From Bacteroidaceae bacterium (lineage in GTDB: Bacteria > Bacteroidota > Bacteroidia > Bacteroidales > Bacteroidaceae), in the NCBI GenBank assembly GCA_024398515.1, contig JAKSIZ010000024.1, forward strand, positions 1 through 36,585: DNA of 36,585 nucleotides. The letters run 5' to 3'. The notes below the pieces were generated by a model. That model worked only from the letters and a program-made list of their open reading frames with translations. It did not search any database and was not told where the DNA came from. A program made the translations under genes and the position numbers. Each line of letters begins with the position of its first letter. Position 1 is the stretch's first letter. Shown piece by piece: positions 39 through 25,591 of this stretch.

Positions 39-527
39 ATGAAAGACTTTGCAGCCATAGATTTTGAGACCGCCAACTGTGAACGAAGCAGCGTTTGCAG
101 TGTCGGCATCGTGATAGTAAGGAACGGGGAGATTGTCGATACCTTCTATTCGCTCATCAATCCAGAACCAAACTACTACAATTACTGGTGTACCCAAGTG
201 CATGGACTGACTGCACAGGACACAGACAATGCCCCTATTTTCCCTGACGTTTGGAAACAGGTGGAACCACTCATAGAAGGATTGCCACTCGTCGCTCATA
301 ACAAAGCATTCGACGAGAGCTGTTTGAAAGCTGCATTCCGCACCTATCAGATGGACTATCCTGACTACGAGTTCCATTGCACACTCCTGAAGTCAAGAGA
401 AGTATGGCCAGAAGGACATCATAACCTTGACATCATAGCCGAGCGTTGCGGATATAATTTAGAGAATCATCATCACGCATTGGCTGATGCAAAAGCATGT
501 GCTGCCATAGCTATTCAAATACTCTAA
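39..527 (+). CDS. DEDDh 3'-5' exonuclease (DnaQ/epsilon-like), stand-alone
   Basis: A 162-residue single-domain exonuclease of the RNase T/DnaQ fold. It is expected to remove nucleotides from 3' ends using two metal ions. The catalytic set is visible: D8 and E10 in AIDFET (Exo I), D92 in HNKAFDESCL (Exo II), and H145 and D150 in HHHALAD (Exo III, the DEDDh arrangement). The length fits a bare exonuclease domain with no polymerase-binding tail or BRCT domain, so it is not a clear DNA polymerase III epsilon subunit. The ATG at 39 gives a complete Exo I motif. The next gene begins 11 nt after the stop. The 3' end of this gene recurs, decayed, at 1043-1222 and 2344-2391. Its biological substrate cannot be told from the sequence. 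Confidence 0.88.
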   Translation: MKDFAAIDFETANCERSSVCSVGIVIVRNGEIVDTFYSLINPEPNYYNYWCTQVHGLTAQDTDNAPIFPDVWKQVEPLIEGLPLVAHNKAFDESCLKAAFRTYQMDYPDYEFHCTLLKSREVWPEGHHNLDIIAERCGYNLENHHHALADAKACAAIAIQIL

Positions 528-538
528 AACAAAATATT

Positions 539-1042
539 ATGATTGAATTTGACATCGAAGAAATTAAGGAATCCATTCAAGATTTGTCAGACAATGACAA
601 ACTGAAAGTTCTCGAAGAAAAAGAAACAGAAATCTATTCTTTGATTGAAGAATTGGAAGGTTATCTGAGTGAGATTGAAGAACTCAAAGAGGAAATTGAA
701 GAGCGGCAGCACACCGCTTTCTACAATAATGTTCAAGACGCATTGAAAGAAGCAGGCTATAACATTCCATGGGATAATAATGGCAACCTCACAATAGAAT
801 TAGGAAGTGCTACTATTACCATAATGCCTACGTCGGAAAAGATAAGTGTTTACTTCACAGCTGAAAAGCATCAACTTTCATACCGTGAGTTAATGAGCAG
901 ACTTCTTCCTGATTATAAACAGGACGGAACTTTCTTTGGTTTGTCGTGCCAAGAAGAAAACCTAATTGCCAATTTGATTGAAACTATCAAAACTTTGACA
1001 AATGCAGAAGGTCAGTTCTCGGAAATAAGTGGGAAAAGCTAG
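539..1042 (+). CDS. Hypothetical coiled-coil protein behind the exonuclease
   Basis: A 167-residue protein I do not recognise. Residues about 5-60 are very rich in Glu, Lys, Leu and Ile with heptad-like spacing (for example EELEGYLSEIEELKEEIEER), which suggests a coiled coil. The second half looks like a small mixed alpha/beta domain. The ATG at 539 is preferred over the in-frame ATG at 497, because 497 lies inside the exonuclease gene and 539 follows its stop by 11 nt. The two genes are probably cotranscribed. The reading frame continues directly after the stop at 1042 into a decayed exonuclease tail. No signal peptide or membrane segment is seen. Confidence 0.65.
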   Translation: MIEFDIEEIKESIQDLSDNDKLKVLEEKETEIYSLIEELEGYLSEIEELKEEIEERQHTAFYNNVQDALKEAGYNIPWDNNGNLTIELGSATITIMPTSEKISVYFTAEKHQLSYRELMSRLLPDYKQDGTFFGLSCQEENLIANLIETIKTLTNAEGQFSEISGKS

Positions 1043-1222
1043 ATTCCATGGTACAAATACCCACAGTTCAAAGAGAGTTGTCTGAAAATTTCGTCAACTT
1101 CGGCCAGATTACAACATAATCTCGACATCATAGCCGAGCGTTGTGGATATAATTTAGAGAATCATCATCATGCATTGGCAGATGCCGAAACATGTGCAGT
1201 GATTGCGTTAAAAATACTATAG
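1043..1222 (+). pseudogene. Decayed 3' tail of a DEDDh exonuclease (second copy)
   Basis: Translation from 1043 to the TAG at 1220-1222 gives residues matching the C-terminal third of the intact exonuclease at 39-527. The shared stretches are NLDIIAERCGYNLENHHHAL followed by ADAETCAVIALKIL. Over the 59 nt starting at the LDIIAE codons there are only three mismatches to the intact copy; the last 40 nt before the stop diverge more. Upstream, PQFKESCLKISSTSARLQHN aligns loosely with the PDYEFHCTLLKSREVW part of the intact protein. No start codon or Exo I/II motif is present, so this is a fragment. It lies immediately upstream of the unrelated gene at 1243. Confidence 0.85.
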
Positions 1223-1242
1223 GACTAAATAATATAATAAGC

Positions 1243-2283
1243 ATGTACAAATATTCAAAAGAGATATTAGACATCTGTCACAAACAGTATGTATCTGCAA
1301 AGGAGATATACGACTTGTATTATAAACTGCTGAATGAAAAAAAGAATGCAAGTGATGAGAAGGAAATTGCATATTATGAACGTGAAGCGAACGAATTAAG
1401 AGGATATATTAACGATGCGCTCTGGCAATTGTTAGAGTTTGCTGACTCATACCCGAATAACAAATCCATCAAGATTCAGTACTGCGAGCATTGGGAGATA
1501 CCCCATTTCGGTCGTTCTTTCGGCATAGAAGTAACCATAGATGATTTCAACGTCTTTTTGGAATATGTTCAGAACCGTCGATATAGCCAGATTATGATTA
1601 ACTTCTACCACCTATTTATTGGTCAGCGTGGGGAGGATTTCAAGCACATTATGTTGAAGAAAAAATACATGTCCTCATGGATTGAGGGCAATTTCCGTAG
1701 AATAGACGATCACTATATCTACCCAGTCACTACCGAACAGATGCCACAGGCTATGCGCGATATTGTTCATTATATAGAAAGTAATCAAACAGATTTCATT
1801 GCCATGTGTCGAAAAAGCAGTTCGTACAACGAAAATGGCACACACAAGTTCAAATCATGGACAACAACGGCTACTGTCCAAATTACAAGCGAGTCCAACA
1901 CGGGGGTTGTCCAAGGGTTTAAGGACGGAGAACGTCCTCAATTCTACAACCATTATACAGGAGGAAATGGAAGTTTCCGAGTTTGGGATAAAATAACTTA
2001 CGGCATTGAGTTAAACATAGCATGCATTTCTGATGAATTGCCCATATCTCAGAAAATTTTCATCGACGCAGACGAGTATTTGAGAAAAAAGAAAGAAGAA
2101 TTCAACATAGGACGTAATATGCCCTATGCAAAACTGAATGCCTTTCTGACAAAAGAAATAAGAGTGATTACAAAAGATATGAATCTCGACCCAAGGGAAC
2201 GACAATTCTTCCCTATGGATTATAATCTTGACTGGAGAAAAGTTATTGATGAAGCATTTAAACGTATGTATACAACAGAATAG
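1243..2283 (+). CDS. Hypothetical protein, 346 residues
   Basis: I do not recognise this protein. With the ATG at 1243 it has 346 residues. A longer reading from 1192 would start inside the decayed exonuclease tail and is not favoured. The N-terminal 80 residues are helical and charged (YKYSKEILDICHKQYVSAKE and onward). The middle is rich in aromatic residues (HFGRSFGIEV, FYHLFIGQRGEDF). A Thr/Ser-rich stretch (KSWTTTATVQITSESNTG) and a charged C terminus follow. It has no signal peptide, membrane segment or obvious catalytic motif. It starts 20 nt after the decayed exonuclease stop and lies before the GmrSD-like gene, so a role in the same accessory or defence island is plausible but unproven. 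Confidence 0.6.
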   Translation: MYKYSKEILDICHKQYVSAKEIYDLYYKLLNEKKNASDEKEIAYYEREANELRGYINDALWQLLEFADSYPNNKSIKIQYCEHWEIPHFGRSFGIEVTIDDFNVFLEYVQNRRYSQIMINFYHLFIGQRGEDFKHIMLKKKYMSSWIEGNFRRIDDHYIYPVTTEQMPQAMRDIVHYIESNQTDFIAMCRKSSSYNENGTHKFKSWTTTATVQITSESNTGVVQGFKDGERPQFYNHYTGGNGSFRVWDKITYGIELNIACISDELPISQKIFIDADEYLRKKKEEFNIGRNMPYAKLNAFLTKEIRVITKDMNLDPRERQFFPMDYNLDWRKVIDEAFKRMYTTE

Positions 2284-2343
2284 ATTTTAATGGTCAATTC
2301 ATAAATACAAATCGTTAGGTTCATGAATAATGTAAGGTTCTAT

Positions 2344-2391
2344 TCATTGGCATATGCAGAAACCTGCGCTGCCATAGTTAATTTATTTTAG
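2344..2391 (+). pseudogene. Short decayed exonuclease tail (third copy)
   Basis: The 16 codons up to the TAG at 2389-2391 read SLAYAETCAAIVNLF and align with ALADAKACAAIAIQIL at the end of the intact exonuclease. In an ungapped comparison of the best 33 nt I count six mismatches. The region further upstream no longer aligns clearly. The stop lies 2 nt before the ATG of the DUF262 gene, the same position relative to a cargo gene as the other two tails. Confidence 0.65.
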
Positions 2392-2393
2392 AT

Positions 2394-4559
2394 ATGACAA
2401 AGGTTTGGAAAGTTGGTTCACGCTGGAGTGAAAACGGTCTTAAAAATACTTCTGTGCTAAGTATTTTTAGGCGCAATAATGTGGTATTTGTTGGTTCTTC
2501 TGACGAAACGAGAACACGATTCGTTAAAGAGGTAAAAAAAGGAGATTATCTTGCTATAGCAGATGGAAGGCAAATAGTTGCAATTGCTAAAGTGATAGGA
2601 TCGCCTGATCTATTGAAGAACCTCAAGAAACTTGAAACCACTTCTAATGATTTTGATTTCAACTATGAATACGATAAAGAATGGGTTGTTGGTGTAAAGG
2701 TACATATTGTTGAAATAAACAAAAAGGATTATGAGTCTTTCTATTATTGGAAAATGGGGACTTTCTTTGCCTTAAACGAAAGCCTTTCCAAGGAAGTGAT
2801 CAAATACTACGAGAGACAAAGTTGCTTATTTTCAATCAAATCCTATACTGCGACTTTGATGGATGGTGGTGATAATGACTATCGTTCGTTGCTTGATACG
2901 CATACAAGATACGTTATACCTGTATATCAGCGTCCATATGAGTGGGGGGAAGACCAGATAGTACCGTTCATTACAGACATTGTGAACGCTTACTTAGGTG
3001 AAGAGCGTTCTGCAAAACACTCTGAACCTATGTTTATTGGAACAATGCAGTTGTCCCAGAAAAAGTACATCTCAAAAAATGAATACGAGCAGGACGTGAT
3101 TGATGGGCAACAGCGTATTACAACTCTTTCCATTTTTCTTTTGGAGTTGAAAAAACTATATCCCGATTGCAATGCATTAAAGAACTTACAGTTCAATTGG
3201 TTGGAAAATCATATCAATCAGCAGCAAAGTAATTATACAAAAGCTTACTTCTTACAAGGAGAAGAGCTCTCATTAAACAAGTACTACAAGAACTCGTATA
3301 TTGTACGAGAGGCTTTTGATAACGCTTTGCAGGATTTTGATTTGAATATAGATTCCTTTTGTAAGTTTCTGTTTCACTCAGTTTACTTCGTAGTAATTGA
3401 GACAGCAGCAGGCCTATCTAAAACAATTCAAATCTTTAATACCATAAATAATACTGGGCTTGATCTTAATGGTGGTGACTTGTTCAAAGTTAGAATGTAT
3501 GAATACCTTACTGATTTTCAGTCTGCAGACGAAACTGCATTTGAGCAAATTAACGCATTGTACCAACGAATAGACAGCATAAACAAAGAGTTCGGATGCT
3601 ATGTCACGGATATAGGTCAAGTGTTGGACATCTATAAGAATGTCCTTATTACAAAATATGACTTATCTATAGAACTATATTCGTTCGGTTGGGAAACATT
3701 TTATAACAGATTGTTTGATACACTACTTGGCATAAAAGACTGGGGAACGGTATTCCGTTCTGCTACAAAGAATCATCTGGAATTGTCACTTGAAGAATTA
3801 GATAAGGTGATTTCAATAAGATACAGCAAATATTCATATAGATATAAAAACGTAGAGACGGAATTTGCCACACGCCATACAGATTGGTCAAGATATGCTC
3901 GCTCTAAAGGTCTGATGATGTATGTATTCCTATTCTTCCATTGGGATGAACAAGATGTGTTTGATCGACTTGAAGAACTTTTGATAGCTATGAACAAGGT
4001 GTTCTTCACATACAGTATCGTTTACTACAAACAAATTTGGGAAATTAATAGCTTTGTAGCAAATGCTGTTCAAGGTGTTAAATCGCAAACGATAGATGAA
4101 ACGATTAACCTCTTTCGAAAGAAAATCTCTGGATTGGATTTTCAGAATTGGGTAAAGGATAACCTTTTAGGTTACATCAGTGATAATGCAAAACGTAAGA
4201 ATCTTATTTGTGCGCTATCAACATACCTATCAGAGAAGGATTTCTGTCCAACGGAAATAATTGAGCATATTTTCTGGACTCCTTTTGATATAGAACATAT
4301 ACATGCAAATGCGGACGAGGAAGTTCAATTGGATGATGTTTTACAGAATAGCATTGGTAATCTGTCTCAGCTTGAACAAAGTCTAAACAGATCTATACAG
4401 GACAAGCCTTTCTCCGAAAAAAGAAAAGAATATCCTAAAAGTTGTTATTTTGCCATGAAAGAGATAGCTAAATTGAATCAATGGAATACCGAAGAGGCAG
4501 AAGCTCGTAGGAATAAAGAAGTTCTCAAAATGACAGATTATCTATTTGGCTCATTATGA
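2394..4559 (+). CDS. GmrSD-like DUF262/HNH restriction protein with PUA/EVE-like N terminus
   Basis: A 721-residue protein resembling modification-dependent (type IV) restriction enzymes of the GmrSD/BrxU/SspE group. The DUF262 (GmrS-type, ParB-like nucleotidase) domain is seen at about 165-450, with IPVYQRPYEWG at 175-185 and the hallmark DGQQR at 237-241. Near the C terminus, DIEHIHA at 632-638 followed by IGNL at 654-657 and a late Asn/Phe/Lys/Tyr pattern matches the DUF1524 HNH nuclease of GmrD. Residues 1-140 form an extra domain (KVGSRWSENG, then KGDYLAIADGRQIVAIAKVIG split over 49-69) that looks like a PUA/EVE-type modified-base reader; this last assignment is inference. The stop overlaps the next ATG by 4 nt. 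Probable role: cutting DNA carrying modified bases, such as phage DNA. Confidence 0.8.
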   Translation: MTKVWKVGSRWSENGLKNTSVLSIFRRNNVVFVGSSDETRTRFVKEVKKGDYLAIADGRQIVAIAKVIGSPDLLKNLKKLETTSNDFDFNYEYDKEWVVGVKVHIVEINKKDYESFYYWKMGTFFALNESLSKEVIKYYERQSCLFSIKSYTATLMDGGDNDYRSLLDTHTRYVIPVYQRPYEWGEDQIVPFITDIVNAYLGEERSAKHSEPMFIGTMQLSQKKYISKNEYEQDVIDGQQRITTLSIFLLELKKLYPDCNALKNLQFNWLENHINQQQSNYTKAYFLQGEELSLNKYYKNSYIVREAFDNALQDFDLNIDSFCKFLFHSVYFVVIETAAGLSKTIQIFNTINNTGLDLNGGDLFKVRMYEYLTDFQSADETAFEQINALYQRIDSINKEFGCYVTDIGQVLDIYKNVLITKYDLSIELYSFGWETFYNRLFDTLLGIKDWGTVFRSATKNHLELSLEELDKVISIRYSKYSYRYKNVETEFATRHTDWSRYARSKGLMMYVFLFFHWDEQDVFDRLEELLIAMNKVFFTYSIVYYKQIWEINSFVANAVQGVKSQTIDETINLFRKKISGLDFQNWVKDNLLGYISDNAKRKNLICALSTYLSEKDFCPTEIIEHIFWTPFDIEHIHANADEEVQLDDVLQNSIGNLSQLEQSLNRSIQDKPFSEKRKEYPKSCYFAMKEIAKLNQWNTEEAEARRNKEVLKMTDYLFGSL

Positions 4560-5074
4560 CACAGCTCATTGTTGACACTGAACATTATAATAAGGTCCTC
4601 TCTAAGTGTAAAGAAACATATAAAACCTTATGGATTGGCACCGCAGACATCAAAGATTTGTACATCTCCAACGGAAAGACTGACAAGCCTTTCCTTGGAG
4701 TATTATCTGAGTTGATTGGCAAAGGCGTGAATGTTCGTCTTATTCATGCTAAGGAGCCTGGGCAAGCATTTCGTGAGGATTTTGACAAATACAAACATCT
4801 GGCTATTGGATTGGAAAGAGTGCTCTGTTCCCGTGTCCATTTCAAAATCATCGTTATCGACTGCAAAATGGCATACATCGGTAGTGCGAATCTGACTGGT
4901 GCGGGAATGGGTATGAAGTCACCCAATCGAAGGAATTTTGAGGCAGGTATTCTAACTGATGATTCAGAACTTGTAGAAGCTGCGATGGAAGAGTTTGACA
5001 AAGTCTGGCGTGGAGAGATGTGTAAGAAGTGTAAACGTAAGCAATATTGCGGAGATCCGATTGTCGGCAAATAA
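4556..5074 (+). CDS. Single-HKD PLD-family nuclease-like protein
   Basis: A 172-residue phospholipase-D-superfamily protein. The one HKD motif is H95, K97 and D102 in VHFKIIVID, followed by IGSANLTGAG (108-117) and a conserved-looking NFEAGI near 127-132. One HKD motif per chain is typical of Nuc/BfiI-type nucleases, which form a dimer to build the active site; a lipase role is unlikely at this size. The C terminus carries CKKCKRKQYC (C156, C159, C165), possibly a small metal-binding knuckle. Its ATG overlaps the stop of the DUF262 gene in an ATGA, so the two are translationally coupled and probably act together. There is no signal peptide, so it acts in the cytoplasm. Confidence 0.78.
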   Translation: MTQLIVDTEHYNKVLSKCKETYKTLWIGTADIKDLYISNGKTDKPFLGVLSELIGKGVNVRLIHAKEPGQAFREDFDKYKHLAIGLERVLCSRVHFKIIVIDCKMAYIGSANLTGAGMGMKSPNRRNFEAGILTDDSELVEAAMEEFDKVWRGEMCKKCKRKQYCGDPIVGK

Positions 5075-5324: not shown

Positions 5325-5456
5325 TCATCGACGCTTGCGTCGCTTTCACCAAGCGCAGCGACTGAAAGTCATCGACGCTTGCGTCGCTTTTACAAAGCGC
5401 AGCGACTGAAAGTCATCGACGCTTGCGTCGCTTTTACAAAGCGCAGCGACTAAAAG
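5325..5456. repeat. Three tandem 44-bp hairpin repeats
   Basis: Three head-to-tail copies occupy 5325-5368, 5369-5412 and 5413-5456, differing at only a few positions. Each contains GACGCTTGCGTC (a GACGC/GCGTC stem) and a second dyad GTCGCT...AGCGAC. A related copy lies in the opposite orientation at 25592-25638, and half-related copies are at 12089-12198 and 22528-22626. This looks like a non-coding REP-type family. Confidence 0.85.
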
Positions 5457-5519
5457 AATACTGCTACAGTTTTCAAATCAAAACTGCTACAGTTTTCGAT
5501 CCAAAACTGCTACAGTTTT
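5457..5519. repeat. Triple palindrome array, type 1 (site A)
   Basis: Three copies of AAAACTGCTACAGTTTT start at 5457, 5480 and 5503 (period 23, spacers of 6 nt: CAAATC and CGATCC). The second and third are perfect 7-3-7 palindromes; the first has a changed left arm. A T run follows (5516-5524). The inverse copy of the same array is at 25529-25591. Confidence 0.9.
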
Positions 5520-5971: not shown

Positions 5972-6338
5972 TTCTATAAAAAAGTATGTATGGCAATCGA
6001 AAACATTGGCAGAGAAAGCTCATGAAGGCTATGCCGATGTTGATTATGGCGACGTGTGGAGTCTTGATGAAAGACTTGCCGGCATAATAAGCAAGCACCT
6101 TCACGCATTTCTCAAAGCTGAAAAAGGTCCCAACGGAGGCTGTCCTGGAATCATAGTAAATCAGGTTGGAGAAGGAAAGGCACACGAGTCATGGCTGCAG
6201 ATGATTAGGAAGATGATCTACGCATTCGACGAATATCAATCCGTTCATGACAAATTTAACATTGAACCCGAAAAAGATGTCCGCATCAAGGAGGGTATGC
6301 AGTTATTCATTGACTACTATAAATATTTATGGATATGA
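5949..6338 (+). CDS. Hypothetical protein, 129 residues
   Basis: The family is not recognised. From the ATG at 5949 the protein has a basic N terminus (MKQSKKNNSIKKYVWQSK). A segment with many aromatic and acidic residues follows (YADVDYGDVWSLDERLAGII, then SKHLHAFLKAEKGPNGGCPG). It ends with a helical KDVRIKEGMQLFIDYYKYLW. It has no signal peptide or membrane segment. An upstream in-frame ATG at 5913 is less likely because it would overlap the preceding gene by 59 nt instead of 23. It overlaps the next gene by 10 nt, or by 4 nt if the next starts at 6335. It is evidently part of one transcription unit. Confidence 0.6.
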   Translation: MKQSKKNNSIKKYVWQSKTLAEKAHEGYADVDYGDVWSLDERLAGIISKHLHAFLKAEKGPNGGCPGIIVNQVGEGKAHESWLQMIRKMIYAFDEYQSVHDKFNIEPEKDVRIKEGMQLFIDYYKYLWI

Positions 6339-7060
6339 CAGTACAAGAAATTTTCAACACGGTAGAAGTTCGTGAGATAGAGATTGAAATTCTATCAATC
6401 ATTGAAGAAAATGATAGGCGTTGGTGCTCAAATAACGCTTATATCGAATCAGTCAAACATCTGCTATCAGTCAGGAAAAGCATTCTTGACTCAAAATTCG
6501 TCATGGACGAAAACTATAAGTCATTGCTCTCAGACTTCAATGAAGCCTTCATAGCGCATGCCACAGAAATGCGGAAGCGTGTCATTGAACTGCACAATGC
6601 GAGTATCAACTGCGGAATAGAGTGCGATATAGAAACCACAGGTAAATGTTTCCTCGGTTACAAATACTCTTCGATACATCCTGTGCAGACCATGAGGGCA
6701 AAGAAAATCTGGAATATTCTCAATGGCTCTTACGACGAGTTCATGCCTCTGTACTACAATGGTGCATGTAGTTTTTCCATTAGCAATAATGAAAAGCCTG
6801 AATCCATAAACCAGATGCTGTATCTTGACGATTGCCTTGACAACTGGAATGAAATGCTCGATAAGGAGATGACGAAGGATATGCATCTGGTATATCCGTT
6901 CCATACTCTGTTTACCGACATGGACTTTTCTATCTATGACTTGCTATGGGTAAGAGATTTCAACATCGAGATAACGACAGAAAGTGATTACGGCTCATAT
7001 CCAGAAGGCGAAAATAAATATGATGATATAGACTGGAATAAAGGCGATTATTTTGATTAA
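6329..7060 (+). CDS. Hypothetical acidic protein, 243 residues
   Basis: A protein of 243 residues that I cannot assign. It begins with a helical acidic region (VREIEIEILSIIEENDRRW), continues with a Cys-containing middle (NCGIECDIETTGKCFLGYKY) and ends in a very acidic tail (ENKYDDIDWNKGDYFD). Near residues 190-215 the run VYPFHTLFTDMDFSIYDLLW resembles a C-terminal motif I associate loosely with uncharacterised Bacteroidales proteins. Two starts are possible: ATG 6329, or ATG 6335, which makes a classical ATGA overlap with the preceding stop. No membrane or secretion signal is seen. Confidence 0.6.
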   Translation: MDMTVQEIFNTVEVREIEIEILSIIEENDRRWCSNNAYIESVKHLLSVRKSILDSKFVMDENYKSLLSDFNEAFIAHATEMRKRVIELHNASINCGIECDIETTGKCFLGYKYSSIHPVQTMRAKKIWNILNGSYDEFMPLYYNGACSFSISNNEKPESINQMLYLDDCLDNWNEMLDKEMTKDMHLVYPFHTLFTDMDFSIYDLLWVRDFNIEITTESDYGSYPEGENKYDDIDWNKGDYFD

Positions 7061-25528: not shown

Positions 25529-25591
25529 AAAACTGTAGCAGTTTTGGATCGAAAACTGTAGCAGTTTTGACTTGAAAACTGTAGCAGTTTT
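25529..25591. repeat. Triple palindrome array, type 1 (site D, inverse of site A)
   Basis: Three perfect copies of AAAACTGTAGCAGTTTT start at 25529, 25552 and 25575 (period 23; spacers GGATCG and GACTTG). It is the reverse complement of the array at 5457-5519, spacers included apart from one base. It is preceded by CTTATAGTCGGGAAAA, much like site B. Confidence 0.9.

Follow-up and report, generated by a model that had tools for sequence, protein, structure and literature searches.

Three-prime remnants of an exonuclease gene as a probable record of cargo displacement in a Bacteroidaceae locus

In a 36,585-nucleotide (nt) stretch of DNA from a Bacteroidaceae bacterium (assembly GCA_024398515.1, contig JAKSIZ010000024.1, positions 1 to 36,585; hereafter the window, contig C17 in our numbering), the 3' end of one exonuclease gene stands before three different genes, once as part of the intact gene and twice as a decayed remnant. 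How did a single gene end come to precede three different cargo genes? The locus is probably a displacement array, in which each newcomer is inserted behind the exonuclease and displaces the older cargo downstream. This reading is carried by partial exonuclease copies (stubs) that retain only the 3' part of the gene, by pairs of relatives that present a locus before and after a change, and by one switch point inside a stub. The features concerned are as follows (aa, amino acids).

39..527, + strand: intact DEDDh-type 3'-5' exonuclease, 162 aa, the conserved head gene (Pfam RNase_T, 2.4e-21; PADLOC DEDDh, 7.6e-27)
539..1042, + strand: cargo gene, 167 aa, cluster c26 (in 6 of 197 loci; five members aligned)
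1043..1222, + strand: stub 1, decayed last third of an exonuclease gene (E 1.1e-22 with a DNA profile of the exonuclease end)
1243..2283, + strand: cargo gene, 346 aa
2344..2391, + strand: stub 2, a short, more decayed exonuclease 3' end (shuffle and window-segment tests)
2394..4559, + strand: GmrSD-type restriction protein, 721 aa (Pfam GmrSD_N, 1.4e-29; GmrSD_C, 1.5e-15)

The initial annotation of the window had placed a cargo gene 11 nt behind the intact exonuclease, a decayed copy of the exonuclease's last third 20 nt before a second gene, and a shorter copy 2 nt before a third, and all three placements were confirmed. The ATG of the 167-aa gene lies at 539, 11 nt after the exonuclease. 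Stub 1 was beyond doubt, with 83% DNA identity at 1102-1221 (E 4.9e-28) and, at the protein level, residues 107-162 matched by 1058 to 1219 (E ~2e-17); it closes with a TAG at 1222, and the ATG of the 346-aa gene (1243) follows 20 nt on. Stub 2 was weak in a blind profile scan (E 2.2). Compared with the window's own exonuclease end, it was identical at 29 of 36 nt (~2344-2380) with a local score of 37. No shuffled version of the 110-nt gap (2000 dinucleotide shuffles) and no other 110-nt segment from the window (309 in all) reached that score, and a chance origin was rejected on these tests. It fades at about 2391, 2 nt before the ATG of the GmrSD gene (2394). The tails had also been described as diverging toward the stop codon; this is true but not special to them, since intact exonucleases vary there too (residues 156, 159, and 160).

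Exonuclease loci were gathered by protein search from same-genus genomes, GTDB contigs, and IMG/VR, and their flanks were fetched. The exonuclease was matched in 116 of 150 same-genus genomes at E 0.001 and in 195 of 398 at E 1e-60; matches below ~69% identity were set aside in the former search, and in the latter only listed matches that had ample downstream DNA and were not yet in the set were taken. The best 80 loci from GTDB contigs and 2 from IMG/VR were kept, and after 26 duplicates had been dropped, 197 non-redundant loci remained, the window included; draft and metagenome assemblies supplied most of them. The final 186 nt of the exonuclease served as a DNA profile, which was scanned against 1.41 Mb of downstream and 0.93 Mb of upstream DNA.

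At E<0.05, the profile found 19 copies in 18 of the 197 loci. Every copy lay downstream and in the orientation of the exonuclease, with none in the upstream DNA or in reversed sequences; weaker matches (E 0.37 to 8), including three upstream and one reversed, were ignored. One of the 19 was a complete second exonuclease (locus L235). The partial copies, counted with stub 2 of the window, also numbered 19, and all retained the 3' part of the gene; 16 of them extended to within 2 nt of the profile end, and those of L244, L249, and stub 2 faded 9-19 nt short of it. A 3' profile can find only 3' pieces, so a 5'-end control was needed. A control profile of the first 186 nt matched only the complete second copy in L235, and one from the middle of the gene matched only L235, L230, and L228. 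This 3' one-sidedness is the strongest single result of the analysis. An assembly artefact is unlikely as a general cause of the stubs, since they occur in L228 (genome G351, one contig) and L237 (genome G185, two contigs).

The before/after pairs show insertion. Loci L131 and L134 have upstream DNA in common in blocks of 91.7-94.0% identity, not collinear throughout, and exonucleases that are 96.3% identical. Behind the exonuclease, L134 has one extra RhuM-family gene and a 34-nt stub, and the cargo after this stub directly follows the exonuclease in L131 (92.5% over 2.1 kb, the first 400 nt being only 77-84% identical). Insertion behind the exonuclease, one of two explanations offered in the initial annotation, was seen here with a resident-like exonuclease kept. 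Locus L150 is 94.6% identical to L131 over 4.5 kb upstream and has other genes after the exonuclease stop. In the other pair, the stub and GmrSD block of L221 matched L209 at 99.3% over 5152 nt, beginning exactly 46 nt before the stop codon of the intact exonuclease of L209; the WYL-family regulator gene and exonuclease of the two loci are 80-83% alike. Against L049, the block matched at 97.7-100% in 350-nt steps and then at ~80% at the dnaE-like right flank. Displaced cargo still lies beside an intact head in relatives, in L131 for L134 and in L209 and L049 for L221.

The L221 stub can itself be dissected. L137 is 91% similar to L221 in the exonuclease and the start of the c24-family gene, and has the same junction followed by other cargo. 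The stub is 0.872 identical to the exonuclease end of L209; its left part has one change in common with L137, and its right part continues as in L049 and L209. These alignments suggest that the left boundary of the cargo-block swap in L221 lay within an old stub. When the 197 exonucleases were ranked for likeness to each stub, the stub's own exonuclease came 1st for 3 of 20 stubs, 2nd-5th for 4 (both window stubs among them), and 8th-51st for 13, although these ranks are noisy for short stubs. The second explanation in the initial annotation, a repeated loss of exonuclease bodies from exonuclease-cargo modules, was also seen, in the form of a stub whose lineage differs from that of the head (L221/L209, with 13 of 20 stubs ranking 8th or worse). 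Across locus pairs sharing at least 1 kb upstream at 85% or more, 10 of 20 diverged within 13 nt of the exonuclease stop, which is partly to be expected at any boundary between a shared gene and unshared cargo. Ends of high-scoring segment pairs were likewise concentrated at both ends of the exonuclease, which alone says just that the gene occurs in different contexts.

Most stubs were ~30 to 55 nt long, the longer ones being those of L244 (~120 nt), window stub 1 (134-177 nt), L228 (~187 nt), L230 (~312 nt), and L235 (the full gene). The last 17 codons of the exonuclease are not its best-conserved region, ranking 32nd among 146 windows along the gene; they form a conserved block adjoining the least conserved stretch, codons 121-140, and this may explain why many stubs are ~50 nt long. 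About ten distinct junctions were grouped by eye. In one, the RhuM stop codon is followed directly by the exonuclease end, before different cargos (L052, L059, L236, L249, and L232); this junction is eroded in L134 and L149, and L237 retains the RhuM end only. A second recurrent junction lies behind the c24 family (L076, L137, and L221). In the loci with two stubs, the nearer one was closer to the resident exonuclease (0.772 vs 0.70 in the window, 1.0 vs 0.861 in L149), which fits a newest-first order in these two cases. A conserved leader resembling TTATCAACTTATCCACGCTACATTATTATC was observed directly after the exonuclease stop in L060 and other loci; it holds TTATCCAC, which we take to be DnaA-box-like. 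The L060 stub plus leader matched 22 loci across the exonuclease end.

The displacement array most likely arose as follows. A conserved head, often a WYL regulator gene and the DEDDh exonuclease gene, would carry cargo directly behind the exonuclease. Occasionally, incoming foreign DNA that brings a new gene together with a homologous head would recombine into the locus. Crossover on the left would take place within the head common to both molecules, and the join on the right within the 3' part of the resident exonuclease. A complete exonuclease would then precede the new gene, with the older cargo moved downstream and fronted by just the 3' stub of its former exonuclease. Repeated rounds would produce ladders, and old stubs could be reused as short homology seams in later swaps. 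The most likely pathway would combine long homology on one side with a short or illegitimate join on the other. In the window, the 167-aa gene would be the youngest arrival, the 346-aa gene the next, and the GmrSD gene, with the PLD-like nuclease gene behind it, the oldest cargo; selection may have favoured keeping several defence genes.

Whole WYL-exonuclease-cargo modules might instead have stacked in tandem, with deletion later eroding the redundant inner head from the 5' direction, as selection preserved both the preceding gene and the leader of the following one. In locus L235 (G181:C47), an intact exonuclease is followed in tandem by another that has a WYL gene of its own, and the two exonucleases are 92.5% identical over their last 186 nt; L105 has a second WYL gene downstream; and the stubs of L230 and L228 and stub 1 of the window resemble intermediate stages. 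We nevertheless regard stacking as unlikely, since L134 differs from L131 by one gene and its stub without trace of a second head, and many stubs start 0-24 nt after the upstream stop codon. That stubs persist, whatever their origin, because they serve the following gene as a leader in transcription or translation appears very unlikely: the next gene begins 2-50 nt after the stub in several loci, but the distance exceeds 100 nt elsewhere (332 nt in L052, 266 in L134, 106 in L105), and the stubs decay.

The units often consist of one gene and a ~50-nt stub, always behind the exonuclease, and the same RhuM-stub junction recurs before different cargos, which would suit site-specific integration of single-gene cassettes with an attachment (att)-like exonuclease 3' end by a recombinase supplied in trans, in the manner of integrons or of islands that sit at the 3' ends of genes. 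This we consider extremely improbable. Stub length varies from ~30 nt to the whole gene, and the last 17 codons were under no synonymous constraint (0.90 vs 0.89). The tyrosine integrase family PF00589 had five matches in the genome and none on contig C17, serine recombinases not having been searched for. The lack of PF00589 on the contig and of synonymous constraint makes the exonuclease end look like a homology seam rather than an att site, and a dedicated recombination site there is unlikely. The proposal in the initial annotation that this end is a recombination anchor can be retained insofar as it acts as ordinary homology, but not as a conserved recombination site. It is also conceivable, if highly doubtful, that the WYL-exonuclease pair is an acquisition head whose exonuclease trims incoming ends, building an ordered, regulated, newest-first defence array without an integrase, with the stubs as reusable docking seams. 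DnaQ-like enzymes trim ends for CRISPR spacers.

Several results weigh against the displacement array. A stub was present in just 18 of the 178 loci with at least 1.5 kb downstream, so that a stub, although the initial annotation described the exonuclease tail as the left edge of each cargo, does not mark every cargo, 160 loci having none. Some pairs imply a kept exonuclease and others a replaced one, so more than one pathway may be needed; tandem stacking accounts equally well for the complete second copy in L235. L134 also gained a gene between the WYL gene and the exonuclease, and the diagnostic evidence for a switch inside the L221 stub is one shared site. A RhuM tree scattered the stub-bearing genes without grouping (5 labelled rows of 7, L052 and L236 having been placed under 'elsewhere'), which leaves room for repeated attachment, loss, or exchange within RhuM. 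The link between stubs and WYL was not significant (11 of 71 WYL-headed loci vs 7 of 107, p 0.07). Finally, the left flank of the window is missing: the contig begins 38 nt 5' of the exonuclease, and the WYL gene, usual upstream in relatives, is not visible there. A WYL head on another contig was rejected, as the genome's one WYL relative, on contig C33, is 34% alike and stands first in another operon. Among 397 other same-genus genomes, there was no close relative of the window GmrSD at E 1e-60, no relative of the 346-aa gene at E<=1e-5, and no locus with the window's own displaced cargo beside an intact head.

Around the exonuclease, a WYL-family regulator gene (its representative matching Pfam WYL and WCX) was present in 85 of the 197 loci, immediately before the exonuclease in 61 and within 100 nt in 56. 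As the initial annotation had anticipated, many different genes follow intact exonucleases, partial tails occur elsewhere, and outer flanks are conserved in the before/after pairs. The first gene behind the exonuclease fell into 72 clusters among the 178 loci, a variety inflated by mechanical calling of open reading frames (ORFs); 55 of these loci had no same-strand ORF within 400 nt of the exonuclease. Cargo families were scanned with 78 representatives of 79 clusters behind WYL-exonuclease heads, one very long protein being omitted and right-flank housekeeping genes taken in. Among the first 25 families listed, at least four representatives matched PDDEXK_4, at least three GmrSD_N, and at least two McrBC, and single members matched AbiEi, AbiEii, type III restriction, and RhuM-type candidates. 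Judged by family name, much of the identifiable cargo is putatively defence-like. Of the 64 WYL loci that have 4 kb or more downstream, 15 continue into a gene judged by eye to be dnaE-like (DNA_pol3_alpha was matched by one member that was scanned), and part of the loci may therefore share a chromosomal site. Exonuclease relatives at E 1e-20 in 22 plasmid and 26 phage records, mostly below 60% identity, make mobile carriers possible.

Retention of a 3' end is no rule for every gene. Partial copies of other families comprised 73 five-prime, 45 internal, and 30 three-prime pieces in all. These counts are noisy, since the exonuclease end contains the starts of some called ORFs, and matches among large families reflect shared domains only. 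In the same survey the exonuclease left 6 of 6 three-prime pieces, WYL 7 three-prime and 3 five-prime, and PLD 8 five-prime and 1 three-prime. The WYL 3' end was often left before the exonuclease where WYL is missing or broken (L047, L094, L108, L123, L136, L157, and L162), and some of these remnants may be contig-edge effects. A 73-aa DUF6140 gene left a 3' remnant downstream of the exonuclease in L053, L076, and L217, and by eye in L149; PLD genes, unlike DUF6140, leave 5' ends.

Within the window, the 721-aa protein is predicted by both of its domains to be a GmrSD (type IV restriction) enzyme. The 167-aa protein, whose N-terminus appeared coiled-coil-like by eye, and the 346-aa protein had no match in Pfam or PADLOC. 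Two further genes lie to the right.

4556..5074, + strand: PLD-like nuclease, a recurrent downstream member of such loci (Pfam PLDc_2, 6e-15; PADLOC DrmC, 4.4e-10)
6329..7060, + strand: 243-aa gene that recurs right of such cargo (cluster c4, 21 of 197 loci)

The PLD-like gene belongs to cluster c2, present in 29 of 197 loci, and the 243-aa gene had no Pfam match. Behind the PLD gene, the palindromic unit CGACGCTTGCGTCGCTTT stands in three tandem copies at 5329-5434, and contig C39 of the genome holds one more. The window also has two occurrences of a triple AAAACTGCTACAGTTTT repeat, at 5457-5519 and 25529-25591 on opposite strands (6 matches with at most one mismatch vs 0 expected).

Most discussion of how bacteria exchange defence genes centres on mobile elements that carry an integrase. 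In these gut Bacteroidales, exchange seems to run through a conserved head gene that leaves a record of earlier cargo in its 3' stubs, so the DNA may preserve the order in which genes were acquired. The 3' stubs of one exonuclease also provide a simple handle for finding unknown defence genes. No report of stubs of such an exonuclease was found in open-licence PMC text. Integron cassette arrays resemble the locus in that new genes enter beside the head, older ones move back, and the units are single genes with a short 3' tag. A linked integrase and a fixed, DNA-conserved attachment site were not found, the integrase search having covered PF00589 on C17 and not other recombinase families or other loci, and stub length and synonymous sites being as described above. 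Closer parallels are the type VI secretion system (T6SS) effector-immunity arrays of Vibrio cholerae, for which homology-facilitated illegitimate recombination has been proposed (Kirchberger 2017, PMC5361080), and Rhs C-terminal displacement, for which circles and core homology have been proposed (Jackson 2009, PMC2935791); by analogy, either could operate here. The T6SS arrays likewise have a conserved upstream anchor with successive insertion beside it, older genes shifted downstream, and the old gene's 3' end remaining, and Rhs loci a conserved core with displaced tips downstream after core fragments of variable length. The loci studied here differ from the T6SS arrays in their WYL-exonuclease head, Bacteroidales hosts, defence-like rather than toxin-immunity cargo, and apparent re-use of a stub as a swap point. 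They differ from Rhs in that tip and core there are one protein, whereas the cargo genes here are separate, and in that core fragments within an Rhs locus are always identical, whereas most stubs here differ from the resident exonuclease. Common to both systems and our loci are old cargo lying downstream behind 3' fragments of a conserved head and relatives in which that cargo is still beside an intact head. In place of toxin-immunity or toxin-tip cargo, the window has GmrSD, PLD, and two family-less genes, and the wider cargo includes restriction and Abi-type genes.

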